DNA of 64,000 nt, taken from an uncultured Acidobacteriia bacterium. Its GTDB lineage: Bacteria > Acidobacteriota > Terriglobia > Bryobacterales > Bryobacteraceae. Location: positions 1-64,000 of the forward strand of contig CAIVPR010000182.1 of the NCBI GenBank assembly GCA_903907865.1, written 5' to 3'. Below, in pieces: positions 11,607 to 58,672 of this stretch. The position numbers and the translations under genes are program-made. A model generated the notes under the pieces. That model had not been told where the DNA came from and did no database searches. It worked only from the letters and a program-made list of their open reading frames with translations. Position 1 is the first letter of the stretch. Each line of letters starts with the position of its first letter.

Positions 11607-11689
11607 GGGTTTTCCTTAGTTGGTTGCGGTTCTGCGCTGGCTGGGGATGATGGTTGAGGGAGTGGGCGTGGCCTGGCTGGCGCTGCGGA

Positions 11690-11905
11690 GTGTGCGGTTA
11701 CGGCCGCCTGAAAGGCGGCTGCAGCCAAGAATGGCTGCCCCACAGCGGGCCGAGCGCGCGTCGTTCCGCCGCGTGGCCGTGTCGGCGACCCGGCCGCAGG
11801 ATGCCATCCTGCCCCACAACGGAACGGTGGTGCTGGCGCAACGGGGGGTGCGGTTACGGCTGGCTGAAAGCCCGCCGCGGCCAATATTGGCCGCCCCACA
11901 AGCTG
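11690..11905. repeat. Cluster of interspersed palindromic repeats inside the kdp operon (modules B, A, B')
   Basis: This gap between kdpA and kdpB holds three palindromic modules. Module B (11703-11737) is two adjacent hairpins: GCCGCCT/AGGCGGC around GAA, then CAGCCA/TGGCTG around AGAA. Module A (11797-11811) is CAGGATGCCATCCTG followed by CCCCACAACGG. A second B copy (11878-11893) has the perfect palindrome CGGCCAATATTGGCCG. The B copies share upstream GTGCGGTTACGG and downstream CCGCCCCAC-like flanks. Related modules recur at 13925-13975, 21715-21775 and 26060-26140. The family resembles REP-like dispersed elements. No transposase is associated here. Confidence 0.75.
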
Positions 11906-11911
11906 GGTTGG

Positions 11912-13690
11912 TCATTGGATTAGGTGCTCCACTATGGGGCCCAGGGAGAGGGCCGGGAAGTAGGTCAGGGCTCCGACGATGATCACGACTCCGGCTAGCA
12001 GGCCTACGAAGAGGGGGCCGTGGGTCGGGAAGGTTCCGGCGGAGACGGGGACTTGTTTCTTGGCGGCCAACGAGCCTGCGATGGCAAGCAGCGGGAGGAG
12101 CATCAGGAAGCGTCCTGCCAGCATGGCGATGCCGATGGTCAGGTTGTACCAAGGAGTGTTGGCGTTGAGGCCTCCGAAGGCGCTGCCGTTGTTGCCTGTG
12201 CCGCTGGCGTAGGCGTAGAGGATTTCGGACAAGCCGTGCGCTCCGGGGTTGTTGATGTTGGCGGCGGCGGGTCCGGGGGGATTCCAGTAGCCGGACTTGG
12301 CGAAGTCCACCACCGACGAGGCGGCAGCAAGGAAGAGCACGCTCGCGGCGAGAACCAACATCGCCAGCATCGCCATCTTGACCTCTTTCTGCTCGATCTT
12401 CTTGCCGAGGTATTCGGGTGTGCGGCCTACCATGAGGCCCGCGATGAAGACCGCGAGGATCGCGAACATCAGCATGCCGTAGAGGCCGGAGCCGACACCG
12501 CCGAAGACCACCTCGCCCAGTTCTATGTTGAAGAGGGGGACGAGGCCGCCCAAGGGGGTGAAGCTGTCGTGCCAGCCGTTGATGGCTCCACAACTGGCGT
12601 CCGTTGTGACGGTGGCGAAGAGGGCGGAATCGGCGATGCCGAAGCGGGTTTCCTTGCCTTCCATGTTGCCTCCGGACTGGGCACCCTGGGCCGGATCAGC
12701 CGTGGCCGACATCTCGATTCCGGCTTTGGAGAGCATCGGGGTGCCCTGCTGCTCAAAGTGGTACGCGGTGAGGACACCGCCGAACCAGAGGAGCGTCATG
12801 GTCGCGAACAAGGCCCAACCCTGCCGGGTGTCTCGGACCATCTTGCCGAAGGTGTAGGTGAGCGCTCCCGGGATCAAGAAGATCAGGAAGGTCTCGAACA
12901 TGTTGGTGAGCGGCGTGGGGTTCTCGAAGGGATGCGACGAGTTGGCGTTGAAGAAACCGCCGCCGTTGGTCCCGAGCATCTTGATGGCTTCCTGCGACGC
13001 TACCGGTCCCTGTGCGATCAGTTGCTTGGTGCCTTCCAAGGTGGTGGCCTCGGTGTACTGGCTGAGGTTCTGGATGACTCCCTGAGAGCTGAGGAAGAGA
13101 GCCGAAATGATCGAGAGGGGCAGCAGGATGTAGAGGGTGGCGCGGGTGATGTCGGCCCAGAAGTTGCCGATGGTGGAGATGCTGTGGCGCGAGAAGCCGC
13201 GGACCATGGCGATGGCGACCGCGAGTCCGGCGGCGGCCGAGAGGAAGTTGTGCATGGTCAGGCCGGCCATCTGGACGAAGTAGCTCAGGGTGGTCTCGGG
13301 CACGTAGCTTTGCCAGTTGGTGTTGCTGACGAAGCTGGTAGCCGTGTTGAAGGCCAGGTCCGGGCTGACGTTGTTCTGGCTGAACGCCCGTGGATTGAAC
13401 GGGAACCAGACTTGGAGACGCTGGAGCGCGTAGAGAACGATAGCGCTGAAGGCGCTGAAGGCGAGCAAGGCCCCTGCATAGCGGGTCCAGTGCTGCTCCT
13501 CGGGCTGGCCGGAAGCGTCGAGCTTCACCCCGCAGAGGCGGTAGAAGAGACGCTCGAACGGGCCGAGAATGGGGGAGAGGAAGTTCTTCCTGCCTTCCAT
13601 CACCGTTGCGATGAAGCTGCCCAAGGGCTTGGCGCACAGGGCGACCAAGGCGATGAAGACAGCGATTTGAAGCCAACCGTTGGGTGTCAT
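11912..13690 (-). CDS. kdpA: Potassium-transporting ATPase subunit A
   Basis: KdpA is the channel-like K+-translocating subunit, related to KtrB/TrkH. The 592 residues are hydrophobic with about ten membrane segments and start MTPNGWLQIAVFIALVALC. Pore-region motifs typical of KdpA are present: TATSFVSNTNWQSY, GTNGGGFFNANSSHPFENP and HGLSEILYAYASGTGNNGSA. The gene lies 2 nt downstream of kdpF. Its length is at the upper end for the family. Context and motifs leave little doubt. Confidence 0.98.
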   Translation of the reverse strand: MTPNGWLQIAVFIALVALCAKPLGSFIATVMEGRKNFLSPILGPFERLFYRLCGVKLDASGQPEEQHWTRYAGALLAFSAFSAIVLYALQRLQVWFPFNPRAFSQNNVSPDLAFNTATSFVSNTNWQSYVPETTLSYFVQMAGLTMHNFLSAAAGLAVAIAMVRGFSRHSISTIGNFWADITRATLYILLPLSIISALFLSSQGVIQNLSQYTEATTLEGTKQLIAQGPVASQEAIKMLGTNGGGFFNANSSHPFENPTPLTNMFETFLIFLIPGALTYTFGKMVRDTRQGWALFATMTLLWFGGVLTAYHFEQQGTPMLSKAGIEMSATADPAQGAQSGGNMEGKETRFGIADSALFATVTTDASCGAINGWHDSFTPLGGLVPLFNIELGEVVFGGVGSGLYGMLMFAILAVFIAGLMVGRTPEYLGKKIEQKEVKMAMLAMLVLAASVLFLAAASSVVDFAKSGYWNPPGPAAANINNPGAHGLSEILYAYASGTGNNGSAFGGLNANTPWYNLTIGIAMLAGRFLMLLPLLAIAGSLAAKKQVPVSAGTFPTHGPLFVGLLAGVVIIVGALTYFPALSLGPIVEHLIQ

Positions 13691-13692
13691 GG

Positions 13693-13776
13693 CTAGAATT
13701 TCTCCGGTTTCAGAAGGGCGTATAGGAGGTAGCAGCAGAGTGCGACTGCGATTACTCCGGCGATCAGATAGTCCAT
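13693..13776 (-). CDS. kdpF: KdpF small membrane subunit
   Basis: A 27-residue single-span peptide, MDYLIAGVIAVALCCYLLYA ending LLKPEKF. KdpF stabilises the KdpABC complex as a lipid-like peptide. The ending LLKPEKF is typical of KdpF. It has an AAGGAC ribosome site ahead of its ATG and stops 2 nt before kdpA starts. Confidence 0.92.
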   Translation of the reverse strand: MDYLIAGVIAVALCCYLLYALLKPEKF

Positions 13777-13786
13777 GGTTTTGTCC

Positions 13787-13870
13787 TTAGAGTTTGTCGC
13801 AGGCTTTTGTGAAGAGCCATGCGAGCGCGAAGAAGGCTGCGATTAGCAGGGTGTAGATTAGGTCGGGCAT
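13787..13870 (-). CDS. 27-residue single-span peptide upstream of kdpF
   Basis: This reads MPDLIYTLLIAAFFALAWLF ending TKACDKL: one hydrophobic helix and a short charged tail. It has the same length as KdpF and the same AAAGGACAACACC-type ribosome site, and it ends 10 nt before kdpF. From memory, a similar small frame with a KACD-type ending occurs upstream of kdpF in some other bacteria, usually unnamed. It may be a second accessory peptide of the Kdp complex. Function is unproven. Confidence 0.75.
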   Translation of the reverse strand: MPDLIYTLLIAAFFALAWLFTKACDKL

Positions 13871-13924
13871 GGTGTTGTCCTTTAGGAGCTGTTTGGGATC
13901 GGGCTGGCGCTCTCGGCGATACGG

Positions 13925-13975
13925 CTATGACCGCCTGGAAAGGCGGCCTGCAGCCAAGAATGGCTGCCCCACAAG
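13925..13975. repeat. Palindromic repeat module B
   Basis: Two consecutive hairpins: CCGCCT/AGGCGG around GGAA (13931-13946) and CAGCCA/TGGCTG around AGAA (13951-13966), followed by CCCCACAA. The second hairpin and flank are nearly identical to 11720-11743. It lies at the 3' end of the minus-strand gene 13925-14437 and supplies that gene's last codons. Confidence 0.75.
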
Positions 13976-14437
13976 GCCGGGCGTGCCCGGGTCAGTGGTG
14001 GGGACGAGGACTACGGAGTAACCGTCGCGGGTGAGGGCGTCGGCCAGGCGTTGCTCGCGGGTGCGCCAGAGGCGGCGGGGACTGGCGAGGACGACCAGCG
14101 AACGCTTGCTGATGGTGCTGCGGAGCCCCAAGTCGAACTCGCGGGTGTAGCGGATCTCGCGATGGACCGGGGTGTCCCAAGCTTCGAGGTCCAGTTCCCG
14201 CAGTTGCGCTTCGAGGAAACCGTCCGCGACGGGCGACTCGTGCAGTTGGAGCGGGAAGGGGACGACTTGGATTTTCAGCAATCGAATGGTCGAGTCGAGG
14301 CCTGTGCCGAGGCGGGTGGCAGCCGCGAAGGCGGCCTTGGCCGAGGCGAGGGAGGTGATGGGGACCACGATGTCCAGCTTTGCCGGACTCGATTGCTCCT
14401 GTTCCAAGGTGATTCCCGCACCTGTTGTTTGTGTCAT
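13925..14437 (-). CDS. Universal-stress-like hypothetical protein at the head of the kdp operon
   Basis: About 170 residues. I do not recognise the family with certainty. The alternating pattern LDIVVPITSLASAKAAFAAA near the N-terminus and SLVVLASPRRLWRTREQRL to SVVLVPTT near the C-terminus suggests an alpha/beta nucleotide-binding fold like universal stress proteins. The start MTQTTGAGITLEQ was chosen for its GGAG ribosome site; a longer start at 14476 is possible. It lies 54 nt upstream of the small kdp peptide in the same direction and is probably cotranscribed. The last ~16 codons (LVGQPFLAAGRLSRRS) are encoded by the palindromic repeat. Its frame overlaps the next gene by several hundred bases, and its residue pattern looks the more protein-like of the two. 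Confidence 0.6.
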   Translation of the reverse strand: MTQTTGAGITLEQEQSSPAKLDIVVPITSLASAKAAFAAATRLGTGLDSTIRLLKIQVVPFPLQLHESPVADGFLEAQLRELDLEAWDTPVHREIRYTREFDLGLRSTISKRSLVVLASPRRLWRTREQRLADALTRDGYSVVLVPTTDPGTPGLVGQPFLAAGRLSRRS

Positions 14438-15269
14438 TTTGTACTCCGTCCAATTGCAGGTTAGGCCCGAAGGCATTAGAAAGTCGTAAGGAGTTCGTTG
14501 GGACTTCGTGATGCGTTGCGGGTGCCGGAGTGCACATATCGGCGCAAGTTGTTGATTCGGTTGGGTGGTGCGGTGTTTCCGGGGTATTGGGTTGGGCCGG
14601 TTCGGGGGTCGGAACAGAGCCGAACAGACCCATTAGATCGTCAGGGAAAGTGCCTTCCGGGTCGGCGGGCGGGGGGATTACGGGGCGGTCGTACTTGCCC
14701 TGGTAGTAGGGGTCGGCGGGGTCTGTTTCCGGTTTGCGCGCAGGTTGCTGCTTTGCCTGGGTTGCGCGGAGGCGGAGGAGGGTGGCGAGGGCCTTGTGGA
14801 AGTCGCGGTTGTGGCGGGCGGCGTCGCGGGATAGCTGCGGGACAGCCTTCGAGGTGTCGACGAGTTCGCGGTAGCCGAGGGCGTTGCGGAAGGCTACGGG
14901 GCTGTGGTCGGGGTGGGGTTCCGGGGCGTCGGGGGCGCGCTGGGGCAGCAGGGGCGCGGGAATGGTGTTGTAGGAGTGGTCGATGAGGCGGGCTTCAAGG
15001 ACTCCCATGCGCTCGCGTCGCCAGGAGGAGGCGACCATGTCGTTGACGAGGGTTTTTTCTAGGTGGCCGACGGGTTGGAACTCGCGGTGGTAGCGGCGGG
15101 CGTGGCGGATGAATTGTTGGCGGTCTTCGCAGGCCAGGAGGACTTCGTCGGCAAGGCGGCCGTGGCGGGAGGCGTTTTGGGCGCAGATGGATTTGCCCTC
15201 GGCGGTGCGGGGGCCGGTGGATTTCTGCGCGTTTTCGCGGTTGGCGGCGAGTTGGCTTTCCGTGGGCAT
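13992..15269 (-). CDS. Conserved hypothetical protein (AANRxNAQKSTGPxTxEGK family), 3' end uncertain
   Basis: The start MPTESQLAANRENAQKSTGP, followed by RTAEGKSICAQNASRHGR, identifies a family that, from memory, is abundant and uncharacterised in Acidobacteria and Planctomycetes. A strong ribosome site GGAGG lies 7 nt upstream of the ATG at 15269, which supports this start over a longer frame from 15299. Residues 1-180 are helical and charged; a proline-rich region follows. No in-frame stop occurs until 13992, so the frame overlaps the 13925-14437 gene by about 446 nt, and the overlapping part is Arg/Pro/His-rich and shadow-like. The true protein probably ended near 14480-14560, and a stop was lost or a frameshift occurred. 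Function unknown. Confidence 0.6.
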   Translation of the reverse strand: MPTESQLAANRENAQKSTGPRTAEGKSICAQNASRHGRLADEVLLACEDRQQFIRHARRYHREFQPVGHLEKTLVNDMVASSWRRERMGVLEARLIDHSYNTIPAPLLPQRAPDAPEPHPDHSPVAFRNALGYRELVDTSKAVPQLSRDAARHNRDFHKALATLLRLRATQAKQQPARKPETDPADPYYQGKYDRPVIPPPADPEGTFPDDLMGLFGSVPTPEPAQPNTPETPHHPTESTTCADMCTPAPATHHEVPTNSLRLSNAFGPNLQLDGVQNDTNNRCGNHLGTGAIESGKAGHRGPHHLPRLGQGRLRGCHPPRHRPRLDHSIAENPSRPLPAPTARVARRGRFPRSATAGTGPRSLGHPGPSRDPLHPRVRLGAPQHHQQAFAGRPRQSPPPLAHPRATPGRRPHPRRLLRSPRPHH

Positions 15270-15441
15270 AGGGATTCCTCCGAAGGTGGAGTATGCCATG
15301 GTGGGTGGGGGAAAACGTGCTCGTTTGGCCGCAAGTTATTGATTCGGCTTGGAAAATTATTTGTGACTGGGATGGCTGGGGAGAGTGATTTTGGCGGTTC
15401 GGAGGCTACCGGAATAGACTGGGAGGAGGAGACTTCAGTTC

Positions 15442-15690
15442 ATGATGCGAGCCAGCAACAACCATGAAGCCGAGGCTGCGGCTAACGGCGAACCGATTGA
15501 GATCGCCGAGTCAGGCGGACCAATGGTGAAGGTGGTGGCTGCCGAAGACACGGCGACGCCCCGGCTGGGCTTCATGAGGGGCGAGTTTGCAGTGCCGGAC
15601 GACTTCACGGAGATTGGTCGGGTGGAAATTGACGAGATGTTCTACGGCAAGATATTTCCCGCAGCCTTGCGATTGTCGCGGCGGAGATGA
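15442..15690 (+). pseudogene. Degenerate Phd/YefM-type antitoxin remnant
   Basis: An 82-residue frame resembling prevent-host-death antitoxins. It keeps GEPIEIAESGGPMVKVVAAE, corresponding to the typical GE.v.I...GkPvarl.p segment. It also keeps the tail GFMRGEFAVPDDFTEI, corresponding to the usual GLxKGxxxVPDDFD motif. The N-terminal NxHEAK...LS.LL segment is shortened: HEA runs directly into EAAANGE, an apparent internal loss of about eight residues. The usual adjacent PIN toxin is missing, and the C-terminus after FYGK looks altered. It is most likely an orphan relic next to another defence relic. Confidence 0.55.
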
Positions 15691-15733
15691 CGGATGTTGT
15701 TGATCGTGCCGGGTTGGCTACTTCAAGCCGCAC

Positions 15734-15940
15734 TCAGTGGCAGCGATAGCGCGCGGCTAGGCCGAACAGGGACATGTTGTCCGTTACCGCGTCGTGGGGG
15801 ATGAATACGTAGGTCCATTGCTTGCCGCCGTAGGTGGCGGTGTGGTCGCTGGCACGTTTGCACCAAAGGACTGCGGCGTCGCGTTTGGCCAGGACGTGGG
15901 AGTCGGTCATTTGGTTAGCGGCCTTGGTTTCGAGCATAGA
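15734..15940 (-). pseudogene. C-terminal remnant of a type III restriction endonuclease (Res) subunit
   Basis: About 68 residues reading ETKAANQMTDSHVLAKRDAA, then VLWCKRASDHTATYGGKQW and YVFIPHDAVTDNMSLFGLAA. This matches my recollection of the extreme C-terminus of type III Res proteins: an EvKa..em...v..K..aA..WC..As......GkpW.Y.lIPhd.i..n.sl.gL pattern, which follows the nuclease domain. The helicase and most of the nuclease are gone, and no mod gene is present. The upstream part of the open frame shows no family resemblance. It is therefore a relic of a lost restriction system. Confidence 0.6.
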
Positions 15941-16074
15941 GAGACCGCGTCCAAAGCAGGTCCGCTCTGCGGGTTTCGGGCCTCGACCGACGCGCGACCG
16001 GCCCAAGAAAACATCTTTTTGGCATGTCGGGGCAGGAATTGATCGCGTTTGCGCCTAAGGGGCAGGAGACCCTT

Positions 16075-17148
16075 ATGCAACAGCGCCTATCCGTACTCGC
16101 CGCATGCCTCGTCCTGTCCGCCAGCCGGGCGGCTGCCGGGCCCATGTATACTATCACGGACCTTGGACGGACCTCGAGCCGGAACTACCCCTTCAATGCA
16201 GCGAATTCGTTGAACAACCTCGGCCAGATCGGCGGCACCGTCTTCGACGGAACACGCAACCAAGTGGCGATCTACAATCCAGACGGCACCATGACCCTAC
16301 TGGGGTCGACCGGAGATTTCGGCGGCCTCAACAACCTTGGCCAAGCTGTCTTCTACTCGGACAACAGCTACACGTCGTACCTCTACAGCGGAGGGACGGT
16401 GACCCAACTGACGGGCATCTACCGCGCAACGGCAATCAACGACTCCGGCCTGATTGTAGGCAACAGCAGCAACCAGACCGAGTTCGGAACGCCGGGGGCG
16501 TTCACAACCGTCGCCATCAACTGCAACAGCGTGGCCGCGGGCGTCAACAATTCGGGAATAGTGATTGGAACCTACGAGAACGGATGCAACCGCTACTGGT
16601 CGGGATATTGGATGGACTCCGCGCACCCCCAAAACCCGAGTTCGATCCCGCCGCTCAGCTATCCGACCGATCAAGGCAGGTACGGGGAAATCAGTTCTCC
16701 TGTTGCGATCAACAATCGAAACGAGATCGTAGGCTCGTCCGGAGTGAGCCAAGGAGTGGCGCACGCATTCCTTCTGGAACCGGGCGTAGGCCTCATCGAC
16801 TTGTGCCCGAGCTGCGGGGCCTCGGCCGCGTACGGTATCAACAATCACGGCGACATCGTCGGCCACACGACCCTCACGGCGGGGTTCCTGTACACACCGT
16901 CGCTCGGATTGCTGGATTTGAATTCCCTGGTCGATCCTAGTTGGCCGAACGATCACAACTTTATCTGGGATGGCATTGCGATCAACGACTCGGGACAAAT
17001 CCTGGCCGACGGAGCTGTGAACGGCTTCGGGACCGTATTCCTGCTCAACCCCACGGAGTCCGCTGCGCCGGAACCCTCGACATGGGCCGGTGCCCTGATG
17101 CCTTTGCTTGCCATGGCCGCGCGCCGCAAGTCTACGGCTCGCCGCTGA
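16075..17148 (+). CDS. Secreted HAF-repeat protein with PEP-CTERM-like tail
   Basis: About 357 residues with a signal peptide (MQQRLSVLAACLVLSASRAAAG). Repeated units of the type AINDSGLIVGNS, NNSGIVIGTY, INNRNEIVGSSG and INNHGDIVGHTT are typical HAF extracellular repeats, which probably form a beta-propeller. The C-terminus PEPSTWAGALMPLLAMAARR is a PEP-CTERM sorting signal: PEP, hydrophobic helix, Arg cluster. It is likely processed by an exosortase encoded elsewhere. I chose the ATG at 16075 because GGAG lies 6-9 nt upstream and the signal peptide starts there. Its 3' end overlaps the convergent kinase gene by 17 nt. Biological role unknown. Confidence 0.82.
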   Translation: MQQRLSVLAACLVLSASRAAAGPMYTITDLGRTSSRNYPFNAANSLNNLGQIGGTVFDGTRNQVAIYNPDGTMTLLGSTGDFGGLNNLGQAVFYSDNSYTSYLYSGGTVTQLTGIYRATAINDSGLIVGNSSNQTEFGTPGAFTTVAINCNSVAAGVNNSGIVIGTYENGCNRYWSGYWMDSAHPQNPSSIPPLSYPTDQGRYGEISSPVAINNRNEIVGSSGVSQGVAHAFLLEPGVGLIDLCPSCGASAAYGINNHGDIVGHTTLTAGFLYTPSLGLLDLNSLVDPSWPNDHNFIWDGIAINDSGQILADGAVNGFGTVFLLNPTESAAPEPSTWAGALMPLLAMAARRKSTARR

Positions 17149-20100
17149 GATTTTCCAGGGCGTCCGCCAATGCGGCTGCAAAAGGTACGGGGCCGCTTGC
17201 CCGCAATTCGGGGTCGTATGCCAGCCCCTGCGCCAGCACCTCGGCGACCGTCGGCGGGAAACCAGCCAGCAGCCGGCGCATGGCTTGGGAATTCCCCGCC
17301 GCGACTCCCGCGTAGCGTACGCCGGTGATCGCCTCAAAGACCACGGAGGCTAACGAATAGACGTCGCTGGCCTCCGTGGATCTGCCTTGCACCCGTTCCG
17401 GCGCCATGTAGTCGAACGAGCCCAGAACCAGCGTCGAGGTGTTGCCTCCCAACGACTCGACGGTGGCAGCCCCGAAATCCACGATCACCAGACGCTCGAC
17501 CGGCGAGAAGGCATCCGCGATCAACACGTTCTCCGGCTTCAAATCGAGATGCAGGACTCCGCACGCGTGGACCTCCGCCAGCGCGGCACCCAGTTGACGA
17601 GCCCACGCTGCGGCCTTGGAAGGTTTGATCGGACCGCGCGCCAGTACATCGCGCAAGCTGGGACCAACGATTCTGACCATCGCGATCCAGCGTATGCCAC
17701 GATCGGAAACACCGGCCCCGAGCATAGGAACTACACCGGGATGCGAAATGCGCCGGAGTGCGCCGGTTTCTTTCTCGAACCGAATCCGCTGCCACTCGGC
17801 AATCTCGCCCTCCATGCGGAGAAACTTCACAGCCGCGATGCCGCCCTTCTCACGGTCACGCGCCTCCCAGACGCTTGCGAATCCGCCCTCGCCGATCCTT
17901 CCATCGATCTCGAAGCGATTGTCGAGCACCATCCCCCGATAGTCCTCGTCCTCGTCCCGACCGAGCGGCGCTTGGAGGGCCAACTTTTCGCGCCAGTATG
18001 CCCGCTTGGCCAACCTTCGGCGGATAGCCGTCCATCCCGCGATAACGGGTCCCGCGCCCGTGATTCCTGCCAGCCAGAACCACCACGGCGGATAGGTCTC
18101 CTCAACTTGGAATTCCCACGTCGCCGCAACCTCGCCGAGTTCCGGTCCGCGCATCTCGAAGCGGTACCTGCCCGACTTAAGATCGCCGTAGGACACACGG
18201 CCCGTGGGCGATGACCGCCACGAGGTCTCGACGGGTGTCAAGCGGCACTGCAAGGCGTTGTCGCGGGGCTCGGGCGACGGCCATCGGGCGAACTCGATCT
18301 CCAAGTCACCGCCCGCCCCTTTCAATTCGGCGGTCGGAGATGGCCAGATCTCGTCCCTGCCATGCCAGCGGAACGCCGTCACGCGGGGCCTGTGACGCGC
18401 AGGTCCCGCGAACCACGCGGGATCCGGATCGACCCGGGCAACGCCCCTGTCGCCCGCCACCCAGACAAAGCCGTCAGCATCCTCCATCAAGCCGAACGGG
18501 TTGACCAGGTCGCCAGGAAGGTTGTTCACAGGGTGGAGTGCTACCCAGTCCGGGCGGTCGAGGTGCCGGCCGTCCGCGACTTGCAGGCCCTCCGGCGTCC
18601 CTCGCCAAATCCAACCCCTGCGGTCCGCTAGCATGGCATTCGAAATCGGCGGGGAATAGCCATTTTCTGCCGCGAAGTCAGTCCGATTGGCGCTCGGTCC
18701 GGTCCCTTGGACGCGACTGAACGGCAATGTGGCCCGGTAGGAAACCCAGAACTCCGGACCGGCGCTGACTGCAAGCGACCTGACCCTGGGATTCAGCAGG
18801 GCGCTTGCGGGCACTGCGGTCTTCCAAACGCCCCCGGTGTATTCCAGAATACCGTCGTCGGCACCCATCCAAAGGCGCCCGTCCGGCCCCACGGCCGGTG
18901 CCGTCGCGTACTCACCGTTCCCGGGCAGCACTTCCCTCTGGATTCCCGGCGGGTTGGAAAGAAGACGAAACAAGCCGCTCTTGGCGCCCACGTGCATCCC
19001 GCCGGCGGGGTCGGCAAAGAGTACGCGGAAATCGATCGTTCGGGGTCGGAATCCCCGCCATGCGGCTTCCAGCTCCTTGCCGCCGGACCCCAGGCGAAGG
19101 ATGCCGCGGGAGGCCAGGATGGCCCACATGGAGGCTGCTTGTCCCGGATGCACGGCCACTGCGGGAGCGCCCTCGGTGGTTCCGGGCACGGGATGCCATT
19201 CGTCGTACTGCACGTCGCGAAAGCCGCCGAACCGGAGGACACCGTTGCCGCAGGCGGCCAGCGGTCCGGCGGAGTCCTTTCCAAACGAGGAACAGCCGGT
19301 GGGAAATGTCGCTGGCCCCCATCCTACCACCCAGGAGCGCGGGGAAAGCAATGCCAAGCCGCCGCCAGGGCTGGCCTCCCAGAGGTCACCATAGGGTCCA
19401 GTGGAGAAAAAGGGGACGTCCTGGGTTCCGCCAACCGGCGGTTTGTGCCGGAGCAATTCGCCATGCTCGATCGTTGCGTACCCGGAAATGTGGATGATTC
19501 CGTCGCGCGTCCGAAGTGCGGGCCGTGTGTCCTCGGGGAAGGATGTCCTTTCAGGCCAAAGATAGGTCGTGACTTCACCGTCACGACGAACCCGTACCGT
19601 CCGTTCGCGGTTCCAAGCCCACAAGTTGCCATCGTCATCCCGCACAGCCCGCGTCCAAGGACCGTGCGCAGCTTCGGGCAGCGTTTGCCGGTCTACGCGG
19701 CCCGAGGGATCGAGCGCGCATAGATCCGGAACGCAGACGAACCAGGCGCGGCTCTGGGCATCAAGGGTCAGGCCGCCCGAGGTCCTGTCCGGAAGCGGGA
19801 CGCCTCCGTCGTTGGAGAAGAGGCGGATTTGGTTTCTGATAACCGCCGCCACGCGCGGGCCGATCATGGCAAGGTGGGAAACCGGCTCGGTCCCGATTCT
19901 CTGCAAGCGCCCTTCCGTGTAAACGAATAGGCCCGACATCCCCCCAATCCAGACCCGGCCGTCGGATGCGAGAGCGACAGCAACCACCGGAGTCGGGTCG
20001 AGGAGCCGGAAATGGTGACCGTCAAATCGATAAAGCCCGGTGTCGGAAGCAACCCAGAAGAAGCCGCGCGGATCGACGGCAGTGGAACGGGCTCTTGCGG

Positions 20101-20236: not shown

Positions 20237-20772
20237 CGTATTGCACTCTGCCAATCGCAGCGGACCGCCTTCACAGTGGCGCCCGTTGCCGCGGCGGTTT
20301 CCGTCCAAGAGCAACCACCGTAGTAGCGAAGGCGGACCACCTGCGCGGCCCTTGTATCAATTCGCTCGAACTCCGCAAGGGCGCGATCCAACGCGACCAG
20401 ATCCTCCATGGGGTACGACCGCCCGACCGCGACTGGATGAGTTTCTCTCGGAATGGTCCGCTTGAGGGCTGACCGGCGGCGGATCTCGTCGTTCACCTGT
20501 TCGCGCATCGCTATCGAAACCAGCGCCGCGAAGTGGTTTCGGTCCGCAATCCCGCCCGTTATCGATCGGATGCGGCTCAGCCACGTATCGTGCAGGAGGT
20601 CGCCTGAATAGGACGCGTCGAAGTGCCGTTCGGTCCCGATCTGCCGTTCGGCCAAGCTGAGCAGATGCCGATAGGCCAAGGAGATGAACGAGTGTTCGGC
20701 ATCGCGGTCACCGGCTTGGGCGCGCCGGATCAACTGGGTGAGGTCAGGCAGGTCGCTCCAAGTCAGGTCCAT
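20203..20772 (-). CDS. ECF-type RNA polymerase sigma factor
   Basis: 189 residues. Region 2 includes HDTWLSRIRSITGGIADRNH followed by FAALVSIAMREQVNDEIRRR, which matches the acidobacterial ECF subgroup that resembles TIGR02999. Region 4 is AQVVRLRYYGGCSWTETAAA followed by TVKAVRCDWQSAIRWLGRKL, a helix-turn-helix. The gene overlaps the downstream propeller kinase by 34 nt. No anti-sigma gene is present. Sigma factors encoded with Ser/Thr kinases (ECF43-like systems) are known to be activated by phosphorylation, which fits this layout but is an inference here. Confidence 0.85.
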   Translation of the reverse strand: MDLTWSDLPDLTQLIRRAQAGDRDAEHSFISLAYRHLLSLAERQIGTERHFDASYSGDLLHDTWLSRIRSITGGIADRNHFAALVSIAMREQVNDEIRRRSALKRTIPRETHPVAVGRSYPMEDLVALDRALAEFERIDTRAAQVVRLRYYGGCSWTETAAATGATVKAVRCDWQSAIRWLGRKLGRSF

Positions 20773-21545
20773 GCGTGTTCTTCAGTATAGATCATTGTCA
20801 AGAGCCAGACTTGGAGAGACGCTGAAGATTCAGGGCTTTTCCCCAGGCCACGGCTCCACATGCAAGGACATCCGCCACCCACGGCACTTCCACCCGAATC
20901 CGTGTCCGCGCAGTATGTCTTGGGCGCATCCGGGACAGCCTGCTCCATCCCCTGCGCAGTTTGTCTCGCAAGTTGGTGAACAATAGAATCCACACAGTTT
21001 AGATGGAATGCCAGTCCGTCGCCTTGTGCCGGCCGCGGCGGCCGAAAGCAGTAGGATTGGCATTCCCTATTCTCCACACACGTCTCCCGCCGCTCGGCCC
21101 GCGCCAGAGGCACCCTCTCCAACCGCGATCACACCTTCGACTTCGTTTACTACTACGAAGTCCGCCACATCCGCACCTACGAGCGCGCGGTCCGATCCCT
21201 TTGCCGTTCGGGTGGCCTTTCGTCACCCCGTCGCCTGCCGTTCCTTGAGCGCGTCTAGCCTATTCCAAGTCGCTATTCAGCTTCACAATGCAGTGTTTCA
21301 CATCATCGACGTTCCGAGGCGACAGCAGCTCTTGACAGCGCTTACCATCTGAGTTTGCCGAGTTGAGCGCCGCGCGAATTGTTTAGCGAAGAGTCTGCCC
21401 CGATGGCGCAAGTCGCCTACTGAGTTCGTCCCAGAACCCATTCGCCGCGGACAAGCGCACGATTGCGTCATCCAAATCGGGCCTGAGGGCAGGGCTCGGA
21501 CGCCTTTCCCCGTCCGTCGTCCACCATCGCCTTGCGACTCAAACC

Positions 21546-21660
21546 GTGGAAAAGCGCGCCGCAGTGCTGGATGCGGCCTATCTCGCCCATCCCGAACGCT
21601 TCGTCCACCACCCGCCCCAACCACCGCCACTTCCCCGGGGAGGCTTGGGTCAATAAGCCA
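21546..21660 (+). pseudogene. IS3-family transposase C-terminal remnant
   Basis: The reading KRAAVLDAAYLAHPERFVHH followed by PPQPPPLPR is the typical C-terminal end of IS3-type OrfB transposases, normally followed by AWIN/VWIN. Here EAWVNKPP continues in the +1 frame. An extra G in the run at 21637-21640 explains the shift. No integrase core and no second end of an insertion sequence are visible. It is a decayed fragment. Confidence 0.55.
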
Positions 21661-21714
21661 CCCCCCCGGATTGTTTTTTGGGGGACGGGGCGGCCGGAGG
21701 AAGAAAAGCGCGCG

Positions 21715-21775
21715 CCTTTAGGTCGCGTGGCGGTGTCGGCGACCCCGCCGCAGGTTGGCAACCTGCCCGACACGG
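21715..21775. repeat. Palindromic repeat module A (variant stem)
   Basis: GGTGTCGGCGACC is followed by the hairpin CAGGTTG-G-CAACCTG at 21751-21765. Other copies (11797-11811, 26086-26100) read CAGGATG-C-CATCCTG. The A-to-T change in one arm is matched by a T-to-A change in the other, so pairing is preserved. Confidence 0.7.
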
Positions 21776-21834
21776 ATTGCTGGCAGCTATTGGGCTGGAT
21801 GGCAGCGTTCAGAGTGGGGCAGGTGAGGCAAAGG

Positions 21835-22455
21835 TTAGACGAGGCGGAAGTTGCCGAAGACCGGTGGGGTGGTTTTGCGGCCTTTCCATAGGGCCAGGGC
21901 CAGGGCCATGGCTAGGTCGTCGTGTTGGCCGGATTGGTCCGCTCCGAGGCGGGCGGTGCCGGTTTCGGTCCTCGTTAGGCGGATGTCGGAAAGCTCCCTT
22001 ACCAGGGAGCCGGTTTCCTTCAGCTTGGTGGGAATGCGGAGGTCGTGGCGCTCCAGGAGGACCAGGAGTTCGCCGAAGACGTCCTTCTTGGGGACGTTGT
22101 ACCAAGTGAGGCCGTTTTGCTGGCGGCTGGATTCGTGGTCTCCCGAGGTCAGACTGACTGCGGAGAGCTCGCAGCCGAGCTGGGCGTCGCGGAGCATTTC
22201 CACCACCGGGAGGCCTACGCCGGTGGCGTCGACGACGACGGCGCAGCGGCCGCGGAGGAGTGGCGAAGTGACCAGTTCGCGGACGTGGGCCACCACTTCC
22301 GGGTAGGACGTGCCCAGCGGGATGCGCTCCAGGTAGCGCACGATGGCCGGGCCGCGCTCGGTGCCTCCGTATGCGCTGCGGTATTCGACGCGCTCGACGA
22401 CGGCGATGGCTGAATTGTCGTGGCGCTGGCCGAGGTCAAGGCCTAGGTAGTGCAT
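21835..22455 (-). CDS. Terminase-like RNase H-fold nuclease domain protein
   Basis: 206 residues beginning MHYLGLDLGQRHDNSAIAVV. This matches the first strand of an RNase H-like nuclease, as in the C-terminal domain of phage large terminases (a D near the start, in GLDLGQ). A second acidic site is CAVVVDATGVGLPVVEMLRD, and a late one is ADQSGQHDDLAMALALALWK. Large terminases normally carry this domain fused after the ATPase. Here it is a separate gene overlapping the ATPase gene by 13 nt. No capsid, portal or small-terminase gene is present. It could be a domesticated or degraded prophage module, or a mobile-element nuclease. Confidence 0.7.
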   Translation of the reverse strand: MHYLGLDLGQRHDNSAIAVVERVEYRSAYGGTERGPAIVRYLERIPLGTSYPEVVAHVRELVTSPLLRGRCAVVVDATGVGLPVVEMLRDAQLGCELSAVSLTSGDHESSRQQNGLTWYNVPKKDVFGELLVLLERHDLRIPTKLKETGSLVRELSDIRLTRTETGTARLGADQSGQHDDLAMALALALWKGRKTTPPVFGNFRLV

Positions 22456-23306
22456 GGACGGACTCCTTGGGTGGGTTTTGCGTGCTTGGGTTGCAGGGGG
22501 CGGAAGTCGAAGGTGTCCTCGTCGGAATCGAGGGCCGCTTCCACCAGTTCGCTGGCGAAGATGCTGTCGGTACGGTCCATGAAGTGGCAGAGGTATTCCT
22601 GCTCGAACCAGGTGCCGAGGTTGCGGCGCTCCTCTTCGAGGAAGGCCGGGGAGATGCGCGGATTCTGGGTGGCGGGGGATTCGACGCGGAACCAGTCGGA
22701 GCCGCCGAAGGCCCAGGAGTGGTAGAAGAAGCCGCGGCGTCCCCAAGGGGTGCTCATGAGCCAGACGTCGCCACGGCCGACGGCGAGGGCGGGGCGGAGG
22801 GCTTTGTAGTGCTCGTCGGGGACGCGGGCGGCCTCGTCGACGATGAGCATGGAGACGGCGGAGAAGCCGCGGGTGGTGGCCTCGTTGCAGGGGAGGGCGA
22901 CGATGCGGGAGTTGTTGGGGAAGACGAGGGAGTCGGGGTTGACGCCGTCGCCGCGGAGGCGGAGGCCGAGCCGGTTGAGGAGGGCGCGGGCCTTGAGGAG
23001 GAGCTCGGCGGACTGGCGGCGCGAGGGTGAGGCGAAGAGGACGAGGCTGTCGGGCCGGGTGAGGCAGCGGTGGACGGAGAGGACCGCGGCGAGGGTGGAT
23101 TTGCCCCACTGGCGGGAGCAGTTGAGGATGCCGCGATTGGCACCGGAGAGGAGGACGGCGGACTGGGCGGGGTCGGGGTCGAGGCCGACGCGCCGGGAGA
23201 AGGCGAGGATGTCGGGGTTGGGGCCGGCGGTTCCTGTGCCTGGGCCTGGGCCGGGTGTGGCGGCGGCCTGGGTGGGGACGGCGTGGGTGGGGTGGTGGCG
23301 GTTCAT
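22443..23306 (-). CDS. Terminase-like large-subunit ATPase domain protein
   Basis: 287 residues, start MNRHHPTHAVPTQ. It has the terminase ATPase core: a P-loop-like ILNCSRQWGKSTLAAVLSVH, the segment SLVLFASPSRRQSAELLLKA, Walker B SMLIVDEAARVPDEHYKALR and the coupling motif VWLMSTPWGRRGFFYHSW. It stops at FRPLQPKHAKPTQGVRPCTT, just where a nuclease domain would normally begin; that domain is encoded by the next gene. The start overlaps the upstream small gene by 4 nt (ATGA). I chose this start because of that coupling; a longer in-frame start at 23351 also exists. Confidence 0.72.
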   Translation of the reverse strand: MNRHHPTHAVPTQAAATPGPGPGTGTAGPNPDILAFSRRVGLDPDPAQSAVLLSGANRGILNCSRQWGKSTLAAVLSVHRCLTRPDSLVLFASPSRRQSAELLLKARALLNRLGLRLRGDGVNPDSLVFPNNSRIVALPCNEATTRGFSAVSMLIVDEAARVPDEHYKALRPALAVGRGDVWLMSTPWGRRGFFYHSWAFGGSDWFRVESPATQNPRISPAFLEEERRNLGTWFEQEYLCHFMDRTDSIFASELVEAALDSDEDTFDFRPLQPKHAKPTQGVRPCTT

Positions 23307-23509
23307 TTTTGGGGCTCCTGGGTGTTGGGGGTGGGGGCGTCTAGTCGGCAATGCGCTCGGAGGACGGGGTCGTAGTCCTGGACTCGGGCGTAGTGGGGGT
23401 GAACGCGGCCGTAGTCGCAGGGACGGAGGGCGCGGATGTAGTCGCGGCGTAGGCGTTCGAGGAAGTGGTCGCCTACGGTGGATTCGGAGAAGTATGCAGG
23501 TGTGCTCAC
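23303..23509 (-). CDS. Small hypothetical protein heading the terminase-like operon
   Basis: 68 residues from a GTG start, rich in Tyr, Arg and His (DHFLERLRRDYIRALRPCDY, then GRVHPHYARVQDYDPVL). No family recognised. Its stop overlaps the ATPase start by 4 nt, so it is the first gene of a coupled three-gene unit. By position it could correspond to a small terminase partner, but no helix-turn-helix motif is evident and this is only a guess. Confidence 0.55.
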   Translation of the reverse strand: MSTPAYFSESTVGDHFLERLRRDYIRALRPCDYGRVHPHYARVQDYDPVLRAHCRLDAPTPNTQEPQK

Positions 23510-23696
23510 GGGTTTAGGGATAGCACGGAGGGGCGGGGGTGGCTAGGGGATTTGGGACGGGAGGGGGCGGTAAGTGGTTGATTTGATTGGTTCCAGAATA
23601 TTTTCTGCGATTGTGAATGGGGTGGAGGGGAGGGCAAAGCGCGCGGAGCACTGCATGGAAGCCGAGGCCTGCCCGGTTAGGCGGGGACGGCACGGT

Positions 23697-24629
23697 TTAT
23701 TGGCACTGGTTGAGAAAGGCGGTTCCGATTTGGGCCCGGAGGGTGGCGTCGGAGAGGGATGCCTGGCCGGTCGCGAGCAGGCCGAAGCATTCCGACAGCG
23801 TCGGGGTGTTGTCTCGGCTGCCGATGTGGGTCTGGGCGAGGTCGTCGACCAGGCTGAGGAAGACGACTCCGTAGACGATGCGGCAGAGGTCGCGCACTGA
23901 GGCGAAGAGGAGCTGGCGGTCGAGGTCGACTTGGCCTCGCTCCAAGTGGGTGAGAAGGCCCATGCCTGCCTCGGGGGGTAGGCCGAGGAAATTGCAGAGG
24001 GTGGCGAGGTCGATGTAGGGGTGGAGGGGACCGGCGCGCTCCCAGTCGACGAGCCAGACGCGGGTTCCATCCCAGAGGATATTGGCGGGGTGGAGGTCGC
24101 CGTGGCCCATGACGAGGCGGCCGTCGCGATCGAGAAGCTCGGCGGCTTGCTCGATTCGGGTTCCAAGAGGCAGGGCCCATTGCGGGAAGGCCGGTCGTTG
24201 GGACTGCGCTGCCCAAACGGTTCGGGCGAAGTCGAGGGTGCCGGTCGCGGCCATCCCGTCGATGGGGATGGATTGGAGCTTGGCGAGGACGCCAAGGAGG
24301 CTGCCGATGGCGGCGGCGCGGGTTGCGGGGTTCGAGACGGCGGCGCCGAAGGAGAAGTCGGGGATCTTGACGGAGACGGTGGCGTGGGCTGCGGCGTCGG
24401 TGTGGACGAGGCGGGGGGCGATTCCGTGGTCCGAGGCCAAGGCCTGCATGGTGCTGACCTGTTCCCACGGGCCGTAGTTGCCGCCATGGATGCGGAGGAT
24501 GTAGTCGCCCGTCTCCGTTGTCGCGGAGTAGACACTCGCACCAGATTGCCCCATGGTTAAGGGAACCGCCGCGAGGAGTGCTCCGAATTGTTCGCGCGGG
24601 AAGAACTGGTCGAGGCCATGGTCGGGCAT
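23697..24629 (-). CDS. Aminoglycoside phosphotransferase/choline-kinase-like protein
   Basis: 310 residues with the APH fold. Key motifs are the catalytic loop MGHGDLHPANILWDG (His-Gly-Asp...Asn) and the metal site WLVDWERAGPLHPYIDLA. An N-lobe nucleotide site (LTMGQSGASVYSA, then YILRIHG) is present. Such enzymes phosphorylate small alcohols or antibiotics; substrate cannot be read from sequence. Its ATG overlaps the stop of the MFS transporter gene by one base (TGATG), so the two are coupled and may act on the same compound. Confidence 0.8.
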   Translation of the reverse strand: MPDHGLDQFFPREQFGALLAAVPLTMGQSGASVYSATTETGDYILRIHGGNYGPWEQVSTMQALASDHGIAPRLVHTDAAAHATVSVKIPDFSFGAAVSNPATRAAAIGSLLGVLAKLQSIPIDGMAATGTLDFARTVWAAQSQRPAFPQWALPLGTRIEQAAELLDRDGRLVMGHGDLHPANILWDGTRVWLVDWERAGPLHPYIDLATLCNFLGLPPEAGMGLLTHLERGQVDLDRQLLFASVRDLCRIVYGVVFLSLVDDLAQTHIGSRDNTPTLSECFGLLATGQASLSDATLRAQIGTAFLNQCQ

Positions 24630-25936
24630 CAGGGCAGTTTAGCAGGTGCCGGGCGGGGGCGTCGGTGCCGGACGGCGATGGCGAGAAGTCCCGAGGCGTA
24701 GGCAGACAGGGCCATTGCCAGCAGGGCGGGCCCGAAACCGCCGGACTGGTTGGAGAGGAATCCGATGAGGTAGGGGCCGACGAAACCGCCGAGGTTGCCG
24801 AAGGAGTTGATCAAGCCGATGCTGGCGGCGGCGGCCGTGCGGCTCAGCAACGTGTTGGGCAGGGGCCAGAAACCGGGATGCGCGCTGTAGAAGCCGATGG
24901 TGGCGAGGGAGAGCATGGCCACATTGAGCCAGACATTGCCGCCGGCGAAGTAGGCGGCGGTGAGGGCGAATCCGGAAACGAGGCGGGGGATGGCGGTGTG
25001 CCACCGGCGCTCGCCGGTGCGGTCGGAACTGCGGCCCACGAGGAGCATGACGGGAATGGAGAGGAGGTAGGGGATCGCGGCCACCATGCTGACTTCGGAG
25101 ACACCGAAGGTCGAGAGGCGCTGGACCATCTTTGGCAGCCAGAGGCCGAGTCCGTAGTTGGGGGTGAGGCCGAAGAAGGAGATGGCGGCCAGGATGAGGA
25201 CGTCGCGGTGGCAGAGGGCCTTCCAAAGCGGGATGTGGGGGCCGCGGATTTCCTTTTCGCGGTCGAGTTCGGCGACAAGCCATTGTTTTTCGTCGGAAGG
25301 GAGCCAAGCGGCGTCGGCGGGCTTGTCGGTGAGGTAGTAGAGGGTGGCGATCCCGAGGATGACTGCCGGGATTCCCTCGAGAAGCAGGAGCCAGCGCCAG
25401 CCGCCGAGTCCGAGCCAATGGACTTGGAGCAGCAGGGCCGAGACCGGGGCACCCATGAGCTGGGAGGCGGGGATGGCGGCCATGAAGAGGGCGATGGCGC
25501 GTCCGCGGTCCTCGGGGCGGTACCAATGGCTGAGGTAGACGACAAGGCCGGGGAAGAAACCCGCCTCGGCGAGCCCGAGGAAGAAGCGGATCCAGTAGAA
25601 TTCGGTGGCGTTGTGGATGAGGCCGGTGGCGGAGGCGAGGAAGCCCCAGGTGATCATGATGCGGGAGATCCACTTGCGGGCGCTCCAGACCTCGACCATC
25701 ATGGTGCCGGGGACTTCGAGGAGGAAGTAGCCGATGAAGAAGACGCCGCCGCCGAAGCCAAAGACTGTGTTGCTGAAGCCGAGTTCCCGGGTCATTTGGA
25801 GACCGGCGAAACCGACGTTGACGCGGTCGAGGTAGGCGACGATGTAGAGGAGGAAGAGGAAGGGCATCAACCGGCGGTTGACGCGGCGTCGCGCGGAGTC
25901 CGGCACGGACAAGGTGCCTGGGGACAGAGTGGTCAC
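24629..25936 (-). CDS. MFS transporter, anion:cation symporter (ACS)-like
   Basis: 435 residues with twelve hydrophobic segments. The motif FLFLLYIVAYLDRVNVGFAG is characteristic of the ACS family (D-galactonate, phthalate and tartrate transporters). The loop 2-3 region and the WYRPEDRGRAIALFMAAIPA motif match the family. Substrate is likely an organic anion. It is coupled to the kinase-like gene downstream by a TGATG overlap. Confidence 0.85.
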   Translation of the reverse strand: MTTLSPGTLSVPDSARRRVNRRLMPFLFLLYIVAYLDRVNVGFAGLQMTRELGFSNTVFGFGGGVFFIGYFLLEVPGTMMVEVWSARKWISRIMITWGFLASATGLIHNATEFYWIRFFLGLAEAGFFPGLVVYLSHWYRPEDRGRAIALFMAAIPASQLMGAPVSALLLQVHWLGLGGWRWLLLLEGIPAVILGIATLYYLTDKPADAAWLPSDEKQWLVAELDREKEIRGPHIPLWKALCHRDVLILAAISFFGLTPNYGLGLWLPKMVQRLSTFGVSEVSMVAAIPYLLSIPVMLLVGRSSDRTGERRWHTAIPRLVSGFALTAAYFAGGNVWLNVAMLSLATIGFYSAHPGFWPLPNTLLSRTAAAASIGLINSFGNLGGFVGPYLIGFLSNQSGGFGPALLAMALSAYASGLLAIAVRHRRPRPAPAKLP

Positions 25937-26059
25937 TCGGAAGAGCGTATCACGGGGTGGGGGGCGATGGCTTTAGGCTGTGGGTTTATGGGTTGCGGGA
26001 GAAGAAATGCAGGCCCGGCGACGCGGAGAGAAGTCTGCGGGACACGCCCCTGGCGGGGG

Positions 26060-26140
26060 CGTTGCGGCGGTCGGCGACCGCCGCGCAGGATGCCATCCTG
26101 CCCCACAACGGCAAAACACTCCCTTGCGGTCGCGGCTCGG
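26060..26140. repeat. Palindromic repeat modules A and C in tandem
   Basis: Module A is GTCGGCGACC...CAGGATGCCATCCTG (26086-26100) followed by CCCCACAACGG, identical over about 25 nt to 11796-11822. Module C (26115-26138) is AACACTCCCTTGCGG followed by TCGCGGCTC; related copies lie at 58605-58628 and, inverted, at 58649-58672. The gap 25937-26174 holds no other feature. Confidence 0.75.
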
Positions 26141-26174
26141 CTGGCAAGAGGGCAATTTGGGGGGATCAGGCGGC

Positions 26175-58604: not shown

Positions 58605-58672
58605 AACGCTCCCTCGCGGTCGCGGCTCTGCCGAATCAACCTGTTACCGAGCCACGCCCGCAAGGGAGTGTT
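58605..58672. repeat. Inverted pair of repeat module C
   Basis: AACGCTCCCTCGCGG-TCGCGGCTC at 58605-58628 is followed after 20 nt by its near-complement at 58649-58672, which reads AACACTCCCTTGCGG-GCGTGGCTC on the other strand. The two can form a stem of about 24 nt. A single copy is at 26115-26138. The rest of the 58587-58945 gap holds no gene; a perfect TTGACA at 58815-58820 lacks a good -10. Confidence 0.7.

Follow-up and report, generated by a model that had tools for sequence, protein, structure and literature searches.

REP elements are tiny non-coding mobile DNAs that are thought to be spread by RAYT, a single-strand transposase. The GTAG/GTGG-tagged REPs with their RAYTs (Nunvar 2010, PMC2817692; Di Nocera 2013, PMC3733652; TnpA-REP, 4er8) are, in the passages that describe them, high-copy, intergenic hairpins with a GT[AG]G foot, inverted REPs flank the RAYT gene and each RAYT has one REP type; paired changes that preserve the palindrome are also noted there (PMC2817692). 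The repeats considered here, modules A and B, resemble them in all these respects, but their units consist of two or three adjacent hairpins and their copies lie head-to-tail, unlike most REP dimers, which are mainly inverted. A and B come from what is probably a soil acidobacterium, whose phylum lies outside the list for GTAG repeats in PMC3733652 (Proteobacteria, Cyanobacteria, Chloroflexi and PVC). The TIRYT/TIRtrons of the same paper do include Acidobacteria, being named from four acidobacterial species, and like A and B they combine a RAYT-like gene with flanking inverted repeats, some of them double palindromes. That paper, however, describes most of these flanks as having no relation to GTAG repeats and their families as moderately abundant at most, whereas the A/B flanks carry a GTGG/GTAG foot and their families number at least 95 and at least 150 copies, a contrast of descriptions rather than of sequences. 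Class 3 TnpA-Y1, as in Solibacter usitatus, whose lineage is presumably related to the A/B host, likewise pairs a Y1 transposase with high-copy hairpins (about 600 in S. usitatus), but its foot is given as CnGA in the relevant part of PMC6006769, and that of A and B is GT[AG]G.

An earlier note on the window, the whole stretch of 64,000 nucleotides that was analysed, had taken A and B for modules of one dispersed family resembling the structured elements of REP/RAYT systems. We consider, with a probability of about 0.9, that they are two REP families, non-autonomous repeats that would be spread by RAYT, an HUH/Y1 single-strand transposase. The likeness to REP/RAYT is thus borne out, by copy number, covariation, a RAYT gene with B flanks and an A-flanked RAYT in genome G015 of the same genus. 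The repeats themselves also stand, but not the single family: A and B make better sense as separate REP families, each linked to a RAYT lineage of its own, whose copies often adjoin as a B-A composite.

Copies in the window and across the genome

Module A, at 11.74, 21.70 and 26.03 kb, consists of three adjacent hairpins followed by the tag CCCCACA, and module B, at 11.69, 11.85 and 13.92 kb, of two followed by the same tag (Table 1). The palindromes with paired stem changes reported in the earlier note are present in both modules: the A stem GCAGGATG.CATCCTGC (11796-11812 and 26085-26101) has the alternative GCAGGTTG.CAACCTGC at 21750-21766, and the B stem GCAGCCA/TGGCTGC (11721-11738 and 13950-13967) the alternative GCGGCCA/TGGCCGC at 11877-11894. 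Of the flanks said to be shared at 11.7, 13.9, 21.7 and 26.1 kb, GTCGGCGACC belongs to a second hairpin and is confined to the module A copies (11.7, 21.7 and 26.1 kb); it is absent at 13.9 kb, which is a B copy. A further correction is that the 21.7 kb copy ends in CCCGACA instead of CCCCACA. The first B copy is the top match of its own genome to the B model R2 and folds into two hairpins (z -5.79), and the AATATT-loop subtype of the second is found again at the RAYT gene. Four copies, all three of B and the A copy at 26.1 kb, had fold energies well below those of shuffles (z -3.05 to -5.79), while on the + strand the energies of the A copies at 11.7 kb (z -1.40; - strand, z -2.42) and 21.7 kb (z -1.63) were not clearly so. 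No Rfam family scored above its gathering score in positions 11500-26500.

Table 1. Repeat copies and neighbouring genes in the window
Feature	Position	Strand	Details
Module B copy 1 (REP type B)	11692..11747	+	two adjacent hairpins; tag CCCCACA 11738-11744; model R2 80.3 bits, E 5.1e-23
Module A copy 1 (REP type A)	11744..11823	+	three adjacent hairpins; tag CCCCACA 11812-11818; model R1 81.2 bits
Module B copy 2	11848..11903	+	AATATT-loop subtype; tag 11894-11900; R2 74.8 bits
Module B copy 3	13919..13976	+	tag 13967-13973; R2 67.7 bits; inserted at 3' end of gene before kdpA
Module A copy 2	21698..21777	+	tag altered to CCCGACA (21766-21772); R1 82.3 bits
Module A copy 3	26032..26112	+	second hairpin perfect; tag 26101-26107; R1 78.9 bits; fold z -4.55
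P-type ATPase subunit, presumably kdpB by position	9549..11606	-	Pfam E1-E2_ATPase, E 1.4e-31; other side of the array
kdpA-kdpB gap	11607..11911		305 nt; holds the B-A-B array; compared with same-genus loci
kdpA	11912..13690	-	Pfam KdpA, E 2.3e-240; adjoins the B-A-B array
Gene before kdpA	13925..14476	-	last ~17 codons, including the stop, lie in a B copy

The genome scan and copy-number mapping that had been proposed gave at least 95 distinct A copies and at least 150 B copies. For A, 101 R1 matches at E<=0.001 were reduced by three 38-nt opposite-strand echoes and three overlapping B hits; for B, 150 of 150 scored R2 candidates matched, and since only 150 candidates were scored, both counts are lower bounds. 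The similarity of the modules across the genome is beyond chance, GCAGNNTGNCANNCTGCCCCACA with at most two mismatches having 89 matches in the 7.5 Mb genome versus 1 for its reversed control. Few hits (A, 5 of 98; B, 16 of 150) lay more than half inside a gene predicted by our home-made gene finder, versus 74% of random positions; such a high-copy, mainly intergenic occurrence is a membership feature of REP elements.

Two sites around the potassium-pump operon are insertions, occupied here and empty in relatives, and offer clean occupied-versus-empty comparisons. Because the kdpA-kdpB gap measures 3-29 nt at 15 of 15 loci in 14 other same-genus genomes, the B-A-B array that lengthens it here is an insertion. 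The B site at 13.9 kb is empty in G015 and G018, and the B copy has given the gene preceding kdpA a new end; in G015 this gene ends ...GYSVVLIPC*. At 26.1 kb the neighbouring MFS gene shares 47-56% identity with its best relatives, and no certain orthologous site for such a comparison was found.

Pairing, foot and layout

A change in one arm of a stem is compensated in the other: when the variable positions were left free in both arms, 64 of the 65 exact sites proved to pair, and all four base pairs occur among them. On MAFFT alignments fitted without the structure, the covariation score was 0.240 for A (shuffled mean 0.069; slid partners at most 0.059) and 0.294 for B (shuffled mean 0.101; slid partners at most 0.081), and 0 of 500 shuffles scored as high for either module. 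One covariation measure, the number of further pair types, gave no excess over shuffles for A (10 versus 10.6, with 435 of 500 shuffles as high) or for B (13 versus 11.0, with 55 of 500 as high). Chance similarity without covariation, named in the earlier note as the outcome that would speak against it, is not what we found, copies being many and covariation strong. We take the paired changes to have arisen because it is the hairpin shape that is kept, rather than the exact stem sequence.

Adjoining the last hairpin, and read on the strand opposite to that of the earlier note, is the 5' foot expected of a REP. By the foot definition given in PMC6006769 in its passage on the subject, GTGG or GTAG is present in 230 of 245 copies (184 GTGG, 46 GTAG, 15 without), a count that is partly built in because models and pattern include the tag, with ~12% expected by chance. 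Close neighbour pairs are head-to-tail in 57 of 61 cases and inverted in 4, so that the A/B copies do not form the mainly inverted dimers of a BIME/REPIN. This layout lowers the claim of a REPIN and not that of a REP, inverted dimers being typical rather than strictly defining. B and A often sit together as a head-to-tail B-A composite, which may spread as one.

RAYT genes and their REP types

The search for a RAYT elsewhere, also advised in the earlier note, found one in the same genome. This single gene, RAYT-B (184 aa), is intact and lies between two inverted B copies with tags pointing outward (70.5 and 64.0 bits), one of which contains its stop codon; an A-type RAYT was not found in the assembly. 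G015 has two RAYTs, one with B on both sides (C173; 75.1 and 72.7 bits) and one with A on both sides (C167; 90.2 and 48.2 bits), the A copies in direct orientation, which counts against the REP/RAYT reading. RAYT-B and both G015 genes are each flanked by their own REP family.

Both RAYT proteins exceed the Pfam Y1_Tnp cut-off (27.0 and 37.2 bits; cut-off 23), and HVH and YIE, the HUH motif and single catalytic Y1 tyrosine, align in 5/5 RAYTs. In a PDB profile search the best match was 4er8 TnpA-REP (E 1.6e-7), above six other transposase-named chains. Going by the residue roles stated in the pertinent part of PMC6006769, W94, Q95, R104 and the catalytic Y115 of 4er8 are kept in 5/5 aligned RAYTs and N119 in 4/5, while E100 is D in 5/5. 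Judged by protein models, the RAYTs are closer to TnpA-REP than to IS200 TnpA (NF047646, 72.5 and 75.5 bits, versus NF033573, 19.6 and 30, for two RAYTs). Both nevertheless fall below the NCBI REP_Tyr_transpos cut-off (72.5 and 75.5 bits; cut-off 80), so they are divergent by that measure and would receive no automatic naming. Two IS200-type genes (C159 and C53) were dismissed as candidate drivers: the 3.2-3.4 kb around each showed no A or B copy, and within 10 kb of either there is no A match and none of the matches listed for B. The one of the two that was scanned (L001) scored far higher with NF033573 than with NF047646.

REP type tracks RAYT phylogeny. In a tree of 27 rows, 13 of them typed, a single change suffices to separate the 7 A-type from the 6 B-type rows (branch support 76/87), and 2 and 0 of 500 shuffles were as low as observed. 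The tree omits L263/L308 and L292, each with an internal stop, L280 (no intact ORF found), loci that duplicate a gene, and a number of weak or distant matches (L274, L276, L279, L282-L288); L293, with an early stop in frame, entered only with the portion before the stop. Among 39 relatives, uncorrected for kinship, at least five REP copies occur in 16 of 20 with a RAYT (E<=1e-25) versus 2 of 19 without (Fisher p 1.7e-5). Counting against the association are G018 (53 B and 11 A matches, no RAYT match), G023 (33 B matches, only a weak RAYT match) and G004, G011, G012 and G029, with RAYT matches but fewer than three copies by either model. An exact 23-mer was also present in MAGs titled Verrucomicrobia, Akkermansiaceae, Armatimonadota and Deltaproteobacteria (among the 80 listed of at least 109 stretches). 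The contig titled Verrucomicrobia (L220) matches one of G015 with 100% identity along 2680 nt and hence is probably misbinned, and the other three genomes have 0 or 1 model match each; we do not claim spread beyond the phylum.

Competing explanations and proposed mechanism

A question arising from these observations is "Could forces other than a RAYT have shaped the repeats?" Did mutation, rather than selection on pairing, produce the paired stem changes, through template switching within the palindrome or repair of one arm from the other? Of the 65 exact sites 48 have C as their centre base and 17 have G, and the C- and G-centred forms of a given stem are reverse complements of each other, which is what inversion or arm-templated repair would produce. 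Some positions, however, stay imperfect at fixed places, such as columns 39/50 of the second A hairpin, unpaired in 14 of 28 rows, and repair therefore does not perfect all arms. The data fit selection and mutation alike, and we regard a mutational origin of the pairing as conceivable but rather unlikely. Additionally, does the host keep the repeats as transcription terminators or mRNA-stabilising hairpins, their spread being secondary? Such roles are ascribed to REPs elsewhere in passages of PMC3733652 and PMC6006769, and they would suit copies that lie mostly between predicted genes, the good folding of most window copies and the one array inside an operon. Yet gene orientations at A (49 co-directional, 14 convergent, 14 divergent) and B (65, 24, 21) resemble those of all gaps of at least 60 nt in the same stretches, with occupied ones counted too (109, 35, 37), the kdpA-kdpB site is empty at every other locus found, and a host role leaves both the RAYT flanks and the RAYT-type tree unexplained, making it improbable as the main cause. 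Repeats so short, non-coding and dispersed might also suggest MITEs derived from a conventional DDE insertion sequence. We find this very hard to credit, because terminal inverted repeats spanning the unit are absent from both modules, which instead line up separate hairpins with a tag on one side, and the copies flank HUH/Y1 RAYT genes.

If A and B are REPs spread by RAYT, their movement may be pictured by analogy with E. coli TnpA-REP and IS200/IS605. The element would become single-stranded, for instance on the lagging strand, whereupon its foot-proximal hairpin would fold; RAYT would recognise this hairpin together with GT[AG]G and cut with its tyrosine, and the cut REP strand would be joined elsewhere. 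Because no A-type RAYT was found in the assembly, its A copies could be relics of a lost RAYT or could have been moved by the B-type enzyme via the shared foot. A tentative extension, which we think more apt to prove wrong than right, is that the mobile unit is the head-to-tail B-A composite with its conserved spacer, a single cassette whose RAYT would read no more than the shared GTGG foot and the adjoining hairpin, so that the orphan REP family A would survive and multiply on another family's transposase.

Our study places two RAYT/REP pairs in one genus, with one genome holding both enzymes. In the genome of the window A is abundant and an A-type enzyme was not found; this contrast offers a natural test of cross-mobilisation. 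REPs with a foot and their matching RAYTs are also placed in what is probably the Acidobacteriota, where the relevant passages of PMC3733652 and PMC6006769 name TIR-flanked and class 3 genes.

Repeat copies in the window and across the genome

Six repeat copies, all in + orientation, lie at four sites in the window (see table). Module A consists of three adjacent hairpins followed by the tag CCCCACA (~80 nt by model) and module B of two hairpins with the same tag (~56 nt). The paired stem changes that the earlier note had described in both modules are indeed present in the sequence, but its claim of flanks shared at 11.7, 13.9, 21.7 and 26.1 kb needs correction, as GTCGGCGACC is restricted to A and the 21.7 kb copy reads CCCGACA. 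The stability of single copies is uneven (fold z-scores -1.40 to -5.79).

Repeat features in the window and loci with the longer A form
Feature	Location	Strand	Remarks
Module A copy	11744-11823	+	model R1
Module A copy	21698-21777	+	model R1; CCCGACA in place of CCCCACA
Module A copy	26032-26112	+	model R1
Module B copy	11692-11747	+	model R2
Module B copy	11848-11903	+	model R2
Module B copy	13919-13976	+	model R2
CTCCCTYGCGGTCGCGGCTC lone half	26113-26140		beside 26.1 kb A copy
CTCCCTYGCGGTCGCGGCTC pair	58605-58672		58.6 kb
Longer A form	L041, L042, L047, L054, L081, L113, L146, L149 (own genome); L289

Copy-number mapping in the 7.5-Mb assembly gave 101 matches to model R1 at E≤0.001, representing at least 95 distinct A copies, while model R2 matched 150 of 150 scored candidates, giving at least 150 B copies; both censuses are lower bounds, with 150 candidates scored per search. 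According to a home-made hexamer gene finder, only 5/98 A and 16/150 B hits lie more than half within predicted genes, versus 74% when positions are drawn at random from the same stretches. Where successive copies are ≤250 nt apart, 57/61 are arranged head-to-tail and four inverted, an unusual layout for REP copies. There are 23 same-strand B-A pairs in which the A match starts ≤120 nt from the B match, with identical spacing in nine. We also observed a longer A form (~142-144 nt), in which additional sequence lies between the first and last hairpins. A third, separate family, CTCCCTYGCGGTCGCGGCTC, has 313 sites in the genome (≤2 mismatches) versus none for a reversed control, and forms an inverted pair with a ~20-nt centre in eight of 17 distinct places read.

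Two sites in the window are occupied by insertions. The kdpA-kdpB gap, which holds the B-A-B array at 11.69, 11.74 and 11.85 kb, is 305 nt long here versus 3-29 nt at every one of the 15 other loci found in 14 same-genus genomes, the kdpA end being less surely placed at four of these (L322-L325); kdpA had no match in four further genomes. The gene before kdpA ends ...CCC TGT TGA in the relatives G015 and G018 (in G015, ...GYSVVLIPC and stop). In the window's genome a B copy lies at that end point and the reading frame continues into it, so ~17 codons of this gene, stop included, are in the repeat. Overlapping this gene in another frame is a 435-aa open frame (13992-15299), the second half of which is probably a chance extension.

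Pairing in the hairpin stems

The compensatory changes claimed from the window were borne out by a genome scan and by covariation. With variable positions left open and ≤2 mismatches allowed, the last A hairpin plus tag matched 89 times in 7.5 Mb, versus once for the reversed pattern. At the 65 exact sites the sixth stem position, open on both sides, pairs in all but one (T-A 37, A-T 20, C-G 6, G-C 1, unpaired A-A 1). Searching the fetched stretches with part of the right arm plus tag held fixed and the left arm free gave 80 sites, of which 79 pair at the sixth position (44, 22, 8 and 5 by pair) and 64 along all eight; because these stretches were model-chosen, the whole-genome search is the cleaner test.

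On structure-independent MAFFT alignments, A (28 rows) scored 0.240 for covariation, with a mean of 0.069 over shuffles and ≤0.059 for slid partners, and B (22 rows) scored 0.294, with 0.101 and ≤0.081, respectively; none of 500 shuffles matched either. Further pair types counted on the alignments did not exceed shuffles (as high in 435/500 for A and 55/500 for B). Covariation cells are not independent events because the A rows form a few subfamilies. Palindrome-keeping REP variants are already known: PMC2817692 describes palindromes preserved among variants and suggests that complementary mutations were selected.

RAYT genes and their repeats

Is there a REP-associated transposase (RAYT) elsewhere in the genome, as a REP/RAYT family would predict? 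A Y1_Tnp search found three genes, one RAYT-like (contig C88, 184 aa; RAYT-B) and two IS200-like, and a protein-level scan covered two of the three. RAYT-B is bracketed by two B copies in inverted orientation, their tags pointing outward, and its stop codon falls inside the 3′ copy. A five-RAYT profile had TnpA-REP (4er8) as top match (E 1.6e-7); the NCBI RAYT model gave two RAYTs 72.5 and 75.5 bits, below its cut-off of 80, and the IS200 model far less (19.6 and 30). The IS200-like tnpA genes at L001 (C159) and L002 (C53) are closely similar by eye, that on C53 being matched in two pieces with an internal stretch absent.

G015, of the same genus, has two RAYTs. One, 63% identical, is flanked on each side by B copies resembling that at 11.69 kb; the other, 53% identical, is followed by a full A copy and preceded by the longer, insert-bearing A form. 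The window's own assembly yielded no A-type RAYT. Typing loci by the better-scoring model beside the gene, with weak scores at several (e.g., L301, 31.3 vs 18.4 bits), we found one change between types on a 27-row RAYT tree with seven A-type and six B-type rows (support 76/87); two and none of 500 shuffles did as well. Counting the window's own genome, 29 of 61 genomes have RAYT matches. At least five copies by either model were present in 16/20 relatives with a RAYT (E≤1e-25) vs 2/19 without (39 relatives; Fisher p 1.7e-5, uncorrected for kinship), and p stayed <0.001 under all six cut-off combinations tried. Among the matches listed in other records, those named are mostly Bryobacterales/Bryobacteraceae MAGs, and the window's genome is probably from the Acidobacteriota. 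L220, a contig bearing two A copies under the title Verrucomicrobia, is probably misbinned, because a G015 contig matches it at 100% identity over 2680 nt.

The foot and the putative mechanism

Read on the opposite strand, 230/245 copies have a foot beside the last hairpin (GTGG 184, GTAG 46; 15 without), with ~12% expected by chance and models that themselves include the tag. GTGG/GTAG is the REP foot given in PMC6006769; class 3, whose hosts there include Acidobacteria, has a different foot. Searching for RAYT together with Acidobacteria returned only PMC3733652 and PMC6006769, most subscription papers lying outside the search, and for Bryobacter no such palindromic repeats appeared in the titles or abstract openings found.

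By analogy with E. coli TnpA-REP, from which we infer the enzymology, a RAYT here would work on single-stranded DNA, recognising hairpin plus foot. The anatomy of the A and B repeats fits such action, and the REP/RAYT reading first proposed from the window is supported. The A copies in this genome may be either a relic or served by RAYT-B.
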